A stretch of DNA of 41,401 nt, taken from Bacteroidota bacterium (lineage in GTDB: Bacteria > Bacteroidota > Bacteroidia > CAILMK01). The stretch covers positions 1 through 41,401 of the forward strand of contig JAPLCZ010000232.1 in assembly GCA_026391915.1 (NCBI GenBank). The letters run 5' to 3'. The notes beneath the pieces are model-generated. The model ran no database searches and had not been told where the DNA came from. It saw only the letters and a program-made list of their open reading frames with translations. Each line of letters begins with the position of its first letter. Position 1 is the stretch's first letter. The translations under genes and the position numbers were made by a program. Below, piece by piece: positions 20,807 to 37,276 of the stretch.

Positions 20807-23032
20807 CTATTCTTCTTTTTTGGTTTTAGCTGCTGCTTTCTTCTTTGGTTTTTCTTCCACAGAAGCTTCTGTTGCAGGAGCTTCATCTTCCACCTTTTTG
20901 GCTTTGGTAGCTTTCTTTGGTTTTTCTTCCACAGAAACTTCTGTGGCAGGTGCTTCATCTTCCACCTTTTTAGCTTTAGTAGCTTTCTTAGGTTTCTCCT
21001 CTGTTGCTATTTCATCAGCGGCAGGTGCTACAACTTCGGCAACAGGGGCAACCTCTTCATCGGCTTTCTTTTGCATAGAGTCCATTTTAGCAATGGCTTC
21101 TTTTTGCTTCACCTTATCCTGTTGTTCCATTTTAGATTTTAGCTGAGTAAGTACATCAAGCTCATCACCAATAGTGGTTTTTTCCACACCGGTATTTACT
21201 TTACTAATATCTTTCTTTTCGCGTTCTGCTGCTTTTTGGTTTTCAGCATAGTTAACATCATTTGCTGCTCTTTCTGCTTCTTTCCAAATATCAGTATGAG
21301 AAAGAATAATCTTTTTATTGTTTTTATCAAACTCAAGAACTTTAAAATCTAAAGTTTCATCAACCTTAAGTTTACTCTTATCGGCTTTTAACAAATGTTT
21401 TTTAGGAACAAAAGCTTCCACACCATACATCAAACCAACCACAGCACCTTTGTCATCAAAATGATGTACAACACCCTGATGGATTGTACCCTCTAAGAAG
21501 ATAGAAGAGAAAGTATCCCAAGGGTCTTCCTCAAGTTGTTTGTGACCAAGGCTAAGTCTGCGGTTTGTTTTATCAATATCAAGAATAACAACATCCAGTT
21601 TTTCACCTACTTTGGTGAACTCTGCAGGATGGTTATATTTTTTAATCCAAGATAAATCAGAAATATGTACTAAGCCATCAAAACCTTCTTCAAGTTCTAC
21701 AAACAACCCAAAGCCAGTAAGGCTTCTTACAGTTGCATGATGTCTTGAACCTACAGGGTATTTAGTCTCAACATCTTCCCAAGGATCTTTGGTAAGTTGT
21801 TTCATACCTAAAGAAAGTTTCCTTTCTTCCCTATCAATATTCAATACTTTAGCCTGTACTTCATCACCCACTTTTAAGTATTCATTGGGGCTCTTTAGGT
21901 GAGTACTCCAACTCATTTCTGATACGTGAATAAGACCTTCAACACCAGCAGCAATTTCTACAAATGCGCCATAGTCTTCAATATTTACAACCTTACCTTT
22001 GATAATAGAGCCATCAGCAATATCTGCTGACATGCTCTCCCATGGGTGAGGGGTAAGTTGTTTCATGCCCAAAGAAATTCTCTTTTTCTCTTCGTCATAA
22101 TCCAACACAACAATATTGATTTTTTGACCTACCTCAAGAATTTCCTCAGGGTGGTTAATACGTCCCCAAGAAACATCAGTGATATGGATAAGACCATCAA
22201 CACCACCAAGGTCAACGAAAACACCAAAGTTGGTTAGGTTTTTAATCACCCCTTCCAAGATTTGGCCCTTCTCTAATTTACCAAGTATCTCCAATTTTTG
22301 TACTTCTAATGAAGACTCAATAATTGCTTTGTGAGATACTACTATGTTGCGATATTGGGTATTTACTTTAACCACTTTAAGGTCTATAGTTTTCCCTACA
22401 TACTCATCATAATCTTTAATTGGGCGAATATCCAATTGAGAGCCCGGAAGGAATGCATCCAGCCCCATAAAGTCTACCACCATTCCGCCTTTAGTGCGGT
22501 CTTTTATATAACCTTGTACAATAGTTTCTTTTTCGTAAGCATCCATCACAACGCCCCAAGCCCTTTCAGCTTGTGCCTTTTTATGAGAGATAATCATCTG
22601 ACCATTTTGGTCTTCCTTTTCTTCAATGATTACTTCTACCTCATCACCAACTTTAAGCCCCGGCATGTGTTTAAATTCTGATAAAGGCACAAGCCCATCA
22701 GATTTAAAACCGATATTCAGCACCACATCTTTATCTGTGATTGCTGCTACCTTGCCCATAATTACTTCTTTCTCTTTTACATCAGAGAAGGTGTTGGAAT
22801 AAAGGGTTTCCATTTGTGCTTGTTGGTCTTTAGCATATCGGGTTCTACCACCTTCATACGCATCCCAATCAAACTCATCTTTTTTAGAAGCTAAAACTTC
22901 TTCTTTTAATGCTGTCTTATCAATGATGTCAGCACCAATGTCTTTGATTTCATCATCTTCCATTTTAGGAATTGTGATGTCAAAATCATCTTCGTCTTTT
23001 CCGAAATTGTCTGTTTTCTTTTTTTCTACCAT
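20807..23032 (-). CDS. rpsA: 30S ribosomal protein S1 with Lys/Ala/Pro-rich repetitive C-terminal tail
   Basis: Six S1-like domains (e.g. GVIKNLTNFGVFVDLGGVDGLIHITDVSW); tail EEKPKKATKAKKVEDEAPATEVS repeated. Confidence 0.95.
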   Translation of the reverse strand: MVEKKKTDNFGKDEDDFDITIPKMEDDEIKDIGADIIDKTALKEEVLASKKDEFDWDAYEGGRTRYAKDQQAQMETLYSNTFSDVKEKEVIMGKVAAITDKDVVLNIGFKSDGLVPLSEFKHMPGLKVGDEVEVIIEEKEDQNGQMIISHKKAQAERAWGVVMDAYEKETIVQGYIKDRTKGGMVVDFMGLDAFLPGSQLDIRPIKDYDEYVGKTIDLKVVKVNTQYRNIVVSHKAIIESSLEVQKLEILGKLEKGQILEGVIKNLTNFGVFVDLGGVDGLIHITDVSWGRINHPEEILEVGQKINIVVLDYDEEKKRISLGMKQLTPHPWESMSADIADGSIIKGKVVNIEDYGAFVEIAAGVEGLIHVSEMSWSTHLKSPNEYLKVGDEVQAKVLNIDREERKLSLGMKQLTKDPWEDVETKYPVGSRHHATVRSLTGFGLFVELEEGFDGLVHISDLSWIKKYNHPAEFTKVGEKLDVVILDIDKTNRRLSLGHKQLEEDPWDTFSSIFLEGTIHQGVVHHFDDKGAVVGLMYGVEAFVPKKHLLKADKSKLKVDETLDFKVLEFDKNNKKIILSHTDIWKEAERAANDVNYAENQKAAEREKKDISKVNTGVEKTTIGDELDVLTQLKSKMEQQDKVKQKEAIAKMDSMQKKADEEVAPVAEVVAPAADEIATEEKPKKATKAKKVEDEAPATEVSVEEKPKKATKAKKVEDEAPATEASVEEKPKKKAAAKTKKEE
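20820..21002 (-). repeat. In-frame 72-nt (24-aa) tandem repeat encoding the S1 tail, two copies plus partial
   Basis: (T/V)EEKPKKATKAKKVEDEAPATE(V/A)S twice, then VEEKPKK. Confidence 0.85.
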
Positions 23033-25015: not shown

Positions 25016-25125
25016 GCCTCATCCGTCCTTCGGACACCTTCTCCAAAGGAGAAGAGAAAAAAACTCCTAAGTTGCTGCTTTTCCATCTTACCCCTCTCCT
25101 TGGGAGAGGGGTTGGGGTGAGGTCA
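25016..25125. repeat. Dispersed imperfect-palindrome element, intergenic copy
   Basis: Starts gcctcatccgtcc, ends cccctctccttgggagaggggttggggtgaggtcact; reverse complement resembles the 36710-36844 element. Confidence 0.75.
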
Positions 25126-36178: not shown

Positions 36179-37276
36179 ATGCTCAACGCCAAAAAACTCC
36201 AACAGATTTTGCTTCCGTTTTTAAGGAGAGATTTTATTTTGCAATCACGGATTCATGAGGCAGGAGGTTATTTTAATCAACCCAAGAGGAGTTTATTTAT
36301 TAAGCGGGAAGATGAATTAAGCTCCGGAATTTGCGGCGGCAAATACAGAAAATTTGCATCATTACTCCAACATATTTCCAACAATAATTATGATGAAGTT
36401 TATGTGATTGGCAGCGCCAACTCAAACAATGTATTGGCGGCAGCGCAACTCTTTATTGAGGCTAAAATTCCAGCAAAGTATTTCCTTTTAGAATCTCATA
36501 ATGAACTGCCATTTGGCAACCACCAATTCTTAAAAATACTGGTTGATGATGGTGATATTTCATACATCAAAAGAGAAGATTGGAAAGAGGTTGAGGAGCT
36601 ATGCCATCAAGAAGCAAAAGCATCTAAGAAAAAGATATTTGTAATGCCGGAAGGTGGCGCAATGGTAGAAGCAATCACCGGGGCAATGACGTTGGCGGTG
36701 GATGTTTGTCACCCTGAAAGACCTCACCCCAACCGCTGGCTTCGCCGAACCCTCCAGGGTTCTCCAAAGGGAGAGGGGCAAGAATGCACAGAAGTAACCT
36801 CGGAGCTTAAAGTCCTCTCCTTTGGAGGGGATTTAGGTGAGGCCAACATCTTCATTGATTCCGGCACAGGCACCTCTGCCATCGGTTTAATACTTGGGTT
36901 AAGTATCATGCAATTGAACCCAAATATCCACATCACCCTTATTGCTGGCAATGAAAAAGAGTTCAGAACCAAACTTGAATTATTCAGAAAAAATATAAGT
37001 GTTTTACTGAAAACTGAAATAGAAATTTCTGCAGAATTGGTGTTTCATAAACCCGCTATTGCCCCTTCATTTGGGGTAGTGAATTCTTCAGTAATTAAAG
37101 AGACAAAAGCAATAGCCCAGCAAGAAGGAATCCTCGCAGACCCCGTGTATTCTGTAAAACATTTTTATACTGTAAAGAAGTTTTTAGAAAAAACTCAATT
37201 GGAAAGCCCTTCTTTAATTATTTACAATGGCGGCAGCTTGGGGTTGGCGGGGTTTCAGGATTTATTAGACTCATAA
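36179..37276 (+). CDS. PLP-dependent ACC deaminase/D-cysteine desulfhydrase-like enzyme, carrying a repeat-derived in-frame insertion
   Basis: FIKREDELSSGICGGKYRKFASLL, IGSANSNNVLAAAQL, MPEGGAMVEAITGAMTLA, SGTGTSAIGL. Confidence 0.85.
   Translation: MLNAKKLQQILLPFLRRDFILQSRIHEAGGYFNQPKRSLFIKREDELSSGICGGKYRKFASLLQHISNNNYDEVYVIGSANSNNVLAAAQLFIEAKIPAKYFLLESHNELPFGNHQFLKILVDDGDISYIKREDWKEVEELCHQEAKASKKKIFVMPEGGAMVEAITGAMTLAVDVCHPERPHPNRWLRRTLQGSPKGEGQECTEVTSELKVLSFGGDLGEANIFIDSGTGTSAIGLILGLSIMQLNPNIHITLIAGNEKEFRTKLELFRKNISVLLKTEIEISAELVFHKPAIAPSFGVVNSSVIKETKAIAQQEGILADPVYSVKHFYTVKKFLEKTQLESPSLIIYNGGSLGLAGFQDLLDS
36710..36844. repeat. Dispersed imperfect-palindrome element, copy inside the PLP-enzyme ORF
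   Basis: gtcaccctgaaagacctcaccccaacc...tctccaaagggagaggggcaagaatg...gtcctctcctttggaggggatttaggtgaggcc; boundaries approximate. Confidence 0.75.

Follow-up and report, generated by a model that had tools for sequence, protein, structure and literature searches.

Here we describe a family of dispersed palindromic repeats in a genome of the Bacteroidota, copies of which are inserted in frame into protein-coding genes, together with longer elements of the same design that encode a DUF559 nuclease within the reading frames of housekeeping genes. The repeat family and the in-frame, hairpin-flanked nuclease elements are directly evident in the sequences; by a modest margin, we favor the interpretation that this is a family similar to the Rickettsia palindromic elements (RPEs), with a nuclease-coding long form that probably mobilizes it. 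The window, that is, the whole stretch of DNA that was analyzed (41,401 nucleotides), belongs to a metagenome-assembled genome of 3.29 Mb (hereafter G000; a draft of 325 contigs, 95.6% complete) and contains one copy of the repeat within a gene and one between genes (Table 1).

Table 1. Positions in the window of the host gene, the inserted element with its arms, and the intergenic copy
Feature	Position	Strand	Size	Basis
D-cysteine desulfhydrase/ACC-deaminase-like PLP enzyme gene, host of the insert	36179..37276	+	365 aa	TIGR01275, orthologs, AlphaFold core
Palindromic element, core CCTCACC...GGTGAGG	36722..36842	+	121 bp	BLASTN family matches
Segment differing from orthologs	36719..36844	+	126 bp, 42 codons	Ortholog alignment
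Left arm, type A, variant with extra GCTGGCTTCGCCGAACCC..GGGTT stem	36722..36780	+		Repeat matches
Right arm, type C in reverse complement, TAAAGTCCTCTCCTTTGGAGRGGATTTAGGTGAGG	36808..36842	-		Repeat matches
Intergenic copy of the same repeat family, arm B ... arm A'	25017..25122			Repeat matches

The product of the host gene matches TIGR01275 (E = 5e-23), and its reading frame continues across the palindromic element without a break, in the only one of the six frames of the element that is open. Residues 176-226 form an unusual, hydrophilic segment. At this position, the window protein has 45 residues, compared to 7-11 in 38 of the 39 orthologs from public genomes (11 residues in 35, 10 in two, 7 in one) and 21 in the single outlier, which amounts to a net gain of 34 residues (102 nt), the 42 codons standing in place of about 6-8 native ones. 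The segment is an insertion also with respect to the orthologs from the same family of genomes, which are 45-50% identical to the window enzyme. No relative of the enzyme was found in the viral contigs searched.

A preliminary description of the window, made without database searches, had proposed that a dispersed palindromic repeat of about 135 bp, free of stop codons, lies in frame within this gene and adds about 45 residues. The in-frame dispersed repeat held, given the family matches and the open ORF. Its size held only in part: the element is indeed stop-free in the host frame, but both the palindromic core and the differing segment are shorter than stated, and the insertion is confirmed with a smaller net gain. 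The same description named two observations that would refute it, namely, orthologs with a segment of the same length, which is not what the alignment contains, and two DNA elements of the window that do not belong to one family, which they do. It further considered the repeat domesticated, which has not been shown; given the predicted disorder of the insert, it is more prudent to call it tolerated.

In the AlphaFold model of the enzyme (39 sequences; mean pLDDT 88), residues 182-212, located between a helix and a strand, have pLDDT below 50, whereas the rest adopts the ACC deaminase/D-cysteine desulfhydrase fold (best match 1j0a, E = 4e-20; also 4d8t). According to the model, the insert, which the preliminary description proposed to examine as a possible surface loop, would thus be a flexible, disordered loop that leaves the enzyme fold intact. 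That the host enzymes remain active is an inference, and the activity of this one has not been tested.

A trivial explanation would be an assembly artefact, that is, a repeat-driven misjoin or a chimera, for which the 325-contig draft leaves some room. This can be practically ruled out: the same orthologs are matched on either side of the insert, the frame is open over the join, and the same design is found in near-complete and single-contig genomes, in open frames of more than 1000 aa.

The phenomenon is genome-wide, beyond what the preliminary description had claimed. BLASTN searches of G000 yielded 77 matches with the insert as the query and 102 matches with a composite repeat query, and for the core hairpin TCTCCWWWGGAGA, 92 sites were found, compared to none for a reversed control pattern. 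In total, the family numbers about 100 matches in the genome, although some weak copies could have been missed; most copies are intergenic. The two-arm copies are 69-174 bp long and modular, consisting of an arm, a middle part of about 20-40 bp and a second arm in reverse complement. Three arm types form the inverted pairs: A (CCTCACCCCAACCCCTCTCCAAAGGAGAGGGGCAAGAA), B (CCTCATCCGTCCTTCGGACACCTTCTCCAAAGGAGAAGG) and C (CCTCACCTAAATCCTCTCCAAAGGAGAGGACTTTA). The in-gene copy of the window is arranged as A...C', its arm A being a loop variant that is also present in another contig (C124, locus L009), and the intergenic copy has the arrangement B...A'. The terminal motif CTCACCCCAACC is found in both (25110-25121 on the minus strand and 36723-36734 on the plus strand), with about 0.15 matches with at most one mismatch expected by chance in the window. 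The earlier claim that the in-gene element shares its architecture and sequence blocks with the reverse complement of the element at 25016-25125 thus held in part: the two copies belong to one family but have only one arm type in common.

No target-site duplication was detected in 36 two-arm copies (mean flank match 1.47, compared to 1.74 in shuffles). Outside the arms, the two flanks are slightly more complementary to each other than shuffled sequences (mean run 2.25 vs 1.15, reached in 2 of 2000 shuffles), which is partly due to end composition. Two copies in different contigs (C4 and C116) share flanking sequence (TTTTTTAG...CTAAAAGCAACCAATT), so this element was perhaps duplicated together with its surroundings.

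In-frame insertion of family copies into genes is not limited to the PLP enzyme. Translated copies were found in murF (35 aa), acsA (43 aa), mutS2 (49 aa) and an aminotransferase class I/II gene (38 aa) of G000, and a further in-frame piece lies between two FkbM-type domains; metG likely contains another short in-frame copy. For MurF, MutS2 and AcsA, the alignments with profiles or PDB homologs break at the insert. Copies near the ends of ORFs (thiL-like, CAP-domain, NUDIX, C40, C34, C282) were not counted because they might be terminal extensions. The usual reading frame of the in-gene copies encodes a hydrophilic hairpin peptide, for example, PSPKER, PLSKGEG or VLSFGEDLGE.

The long form of the element is represented in G000 by the leuS gene (contig C73), where an exact 38-bp arm A is followed by a DUF559 domain (PF04480, E = 2.8e-35), the only strong match to this family in the genome, and then by further arms on the 3' side. 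DUF559 is a Vsr-like PD-(D/E)XK nuclease domain of about 105 residues; in sequence comparisons with the PDB, the leuS-borne domain matches 3hrl (endonuclease-like, E = 1e-22) and 3r3p ('Mobile intron protein', E = 6e-4). The insert retains the leuS frame throughout, except for one TAG in a hairpin downstream of DUF559. This TAG, within the leuS gene (L103:412-3867), corresponds to a hairpin codon that is GAG in the family consensus, and leuS appears to be single in G000; the TAG could reflect a sequencing error, read-through, a mutation or a LeuRS that is naturally split.

The occurrence of a nuclease related to homing endonucleases in housekeeping genes could suggest a cryptic intein or an intron-like element that is excised before the host protein carries out its function. 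This alternative is next to excluded. Pfam scans of the loci detected no Hint/intein splicing domain, only the host domains and nuclease families (DUF559 and MTES_1575), and an Rfam scan at the gathering threshold of the window, the leuS locus of G000 and five other loci (L206, L211, L008, L085, L026) detected no intron RNA, yielding only a tRNA. Moreover, the short forms of about 100-125 bp seem, by inference, too small for either kind of element.

Across the class, DUF559 is present in 99 of the 197 genomes. Among the 150 listed matches, 63 are located in open frames of 300 aa or more, including 50 in frames of 700 aa or more; for the best loci, which were inspected, the hosts are leuS (two sites), metH (two sites), ileS, acsA, recJ and hsdR, and the inspected in-frame domains are mostly bracketed by arm-like hairpin peptides. 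Hairpins were detected within 220 bp on 31 of the 40 sides of the in-gene DUF559 copies, compared to 6% of the control windows. Stand-alone DUF559 genes have hairpins on all 20 of the 20 sides, which might be ordinary terminators. All 27 genomes that carry the arm-A motif also encode DUF559, compared to 72 of the 170 other genomes (Fisher p = 1e-9, without correction for phylogeny); some of the motif matches (in G183 and G184) represent a related but distinct GC-rich palindrome. Because the arms differ between lineages, the assignment of elements from different genomes to the same family rests more on architecture than on sequence. The divergence of the arms also explains the low yield of a composite peptide search of six other genomes, which, within long frames, recovered only the known leuS copy of G016. 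One genome, G017, has 34 repeat-family matches and no match to DUF559; these repeats might be a relic family or have another driver.

At leuS, the same site is found empty, short and full in different genomes. Between the NWIGKSxG and VFTTRPDT motifs (site 1), 27 of the 39 chosen genomes that were compared have 13-20 residues; nine, from six families, have the DUF559 form, with 152-382 residues; one (G090) has a short palindrome of 35 residues without DUF559; and two are intermediate. At site 2, the DUF559 form is present in G090, and the site is empty in its congeners G051, G121 and G197. Within another genus, site 1 is filled in G125, G153 and G200 and has the native length in G177. The native-length loop of G177 (L224, compared with L225-L227) reads LSP-GER (ctgtcccctggggagagg), that is, the codons at the two extremes of the element carried by its congeners, and this sequence is not found in the outgroups G059 and G013; it is conceivable, as an inference, that it is a scar of in-frame element loss. 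Where leuS site 1 is filled in four loci (L103, L206, L211, L231), about 10 of the 15 native residues are kept, which suggests the replacement of about five codons in several lineages; a comparable loss, of about six, is seen in the window enzyme. In G153, the insert is extended to its 382 residues by tandem units of the SPRGEGSGER type.

In a phylogenetic tree of 30 DUF559 domains, RecJ groups with AcsA (support 99/95), LeuS site 2 groups with AcsA (98/91), each from different genomes, and five label changes are required for LeuS site 1. Support is weak on many branches. That close relatives occupy different genes in different genomes speaks for movement of DUF559 from gene to gene rather than for descent at a single locus. 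The catalytic-type residues E-x-D-G-x-x-H are invariant in all 30 domains. Between G200 and G125, dN/dS is 0.13 (dS 0.19) for the leuS-borne DUF559 and 0.08 (dS 0.25) for leuS itself, indicating that this inserted nuclease is maintained under purifying selection.

These observations bear on a second alternative, under which the repeats are functional RNA or DNA hairpins (terminators or mRNA stabilizers) spread by recombination, with no specific mobilizer, and the in-gene copies are neutral accidents. The intergenic location of most copies and the folding of the intergenic copy of the window, which is better than that of its shuffles (z = -3.0), are compatible with this view. However, the in-gene copy shows no folding advantage over its shuffles (z = -0.76), insertions into housekeeping genes are recurrent, with a single leuS site used in six families, and the long forms encode a nuclease under selection, so we regard this alternative as very improbable. 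A structured RNA was considered as a candidate and rejected, given the lack of an Rfam match and the same folding result for the in-gene copy.

Under a third alternative, RPE-like or REP-like palindromes owe their spread to an unrelated enzyme (RAYT/TnpA_REP or another IS transposase), and a selfish DUF559 settled independently in existing palindromes. In its support, REPs and RPEs within ORFs have been documented without DUF559 (PMC3733652, PMC10969869), the repeats of G017 lack DUF559, and G000 contains a partial Y1_Tnp gene at a contig edge. Against it, DUF559 is present in every arm-bearing genome sampled, the sole strong DUF559 of G000 directly adjoins an exact arm, leuS site 1 contains the short or the long form depending on the genome, and no arm is found in the 1.7 kb around the Y1_Tnp fragment. 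We consider this scenario unlikely. RAYT itself was rejected as the driver in G000: this single, partial match (PF01797) is all that was found, and its other flank is absent from the assembly.

In the mechanism that we prefer, the window insert belongs to the short, non-autonomous copies of a modular family of palindromic repeats. Such copies enter intergenic DNA and, given an open frame and a surface loop, also housekeeping genes, where they would be translated and not removed. The long form carries the DUF559 endonuclease between similar hairpin arms and in frame with the host gene, and the nuclease would be made as part of the host protein. DUF559 would mobilize the elements through cleavage or nicking of DNA, recognizing the arms or using them as transfer ends, after which repair by the host would complete the insertion; in essential genes, only in-frame insertions in surface loops would survive. 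Short copies, such as that of the window, would be long forms after internal deletion. Both the role of DUF559 as the mobilizer and the derivation of the short forms from the long ones are inferred. No transposition has been observed, and DUF559 might merely accompany the elements or serve the host as a DNA-repair nuclease. A role in mismatch repair has been proposed for VsrA, a DUF559 protein of Caulobacter (PMC12907096), so that belonging to the DUF559 family does not by itself imply mobility.

Palindromic insertions that keep the reading frame have been on record in Rickettsia since 2000, and they are also known from other REP-rich bacteria. Both in-frame RPEs and in-ORF REPs are established (PMC10969869, PMC3767692, PMC3733652). 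The RPEs, an analogy drawn in the preliminary description that proved apt, are dispersed palindromes of about 100-150 bp that occur in intergenic DNA as well as in coding sequences, where they interrupt unrelated housekeeping genes without loss of frame (PMC10969869, PMC3767692). The family described here likewise consists of dispersed palindromes on the 100-bp scale, in frame in the genes for the PLP enzyme, murF, mutS2, acsA and the aminotransferase (and, with one TAG, in leuS). The likeness is by analogy, no RPE sequences having been compared; the sequence and the phylum differ, the arms here are modular, with three freely paired types, and long forms carry a nuclease, whereas no RPE is known to encode one. 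The REP/BIME elements and REPINs, which are mobilized by RAYTs, are also dispersed inverted hairpin pairs with many copies, few candidate enzymes and some occurrences in ORFs (PMC3733652), but REP units are only 20-40 bp long, and the partial Y1 transposase of G000 lacks flanking arms.

The Vsr-like (EDxHD) homing endonucleases, such as I-Bth0305I (which we take to be 3r3p), resemble the leuS-borne DUF559, which matches 3r3p in sequence (and also 3hrl), and are likewise borne inside genes; in contrast, the DUF559 element is not in an intron and is spread over numerous unrelated sites instead of a single one. Inteins with homing endonuclease domains also place a nuclease in frame inside housekeeping genes, but no splicing domains were detected here, and the insert appears, by inference, to be retained in the protein. 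As in MITEs, short inverted-ended copies of non-coding size outnumber the long coding form; unlike in MITEs, no target-site duplication was detected and no DDE transposase was identified.

We found no description of a nuclease-coding form of in-frame palindromes in the literature searched, in which subscription journals and bioRxiv were sparsely covered, so the novelty is provisional. A bolder reading, which at present we could argue either way, is that these are a new class of mobile elements: selfish hairpin arms with a DUF559 nuclease, translated in frame and unspliced as a surface loop of essential proteins, moving between genes across the Bacteroidota and leaving short palindromic in-frame derivatives. 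If so, the driver of RPE-like insertions would be identified. We found no driver described for in-frame palindromic insertions, and the candidate proposed here sits physically inside the elements. The question of the driver can now be tested, as the nuclease comprises about 105 residues, the arms are defined, and there is a leuS site that is empty, short or full depending on the genome. That LeuRS and IleRS, both essential proteins, carry a whole nuclease domain as an internal insert matters for annotation and for protein evolution, and possibly for finding sites in enzymes that tolerate insertions.

Two other repeats were observed in the window, namely, a 21-bp tandem repeat of at least seven units at 193-378 (consensus around GAATGACCACTCCCCGCAA) and a 72-bp direct duplication, 93% identical, at 20841-20984, in the part of a 741-aa ORF (20807-23032, minus strand) that encodes the C-terminal portion of the protein.
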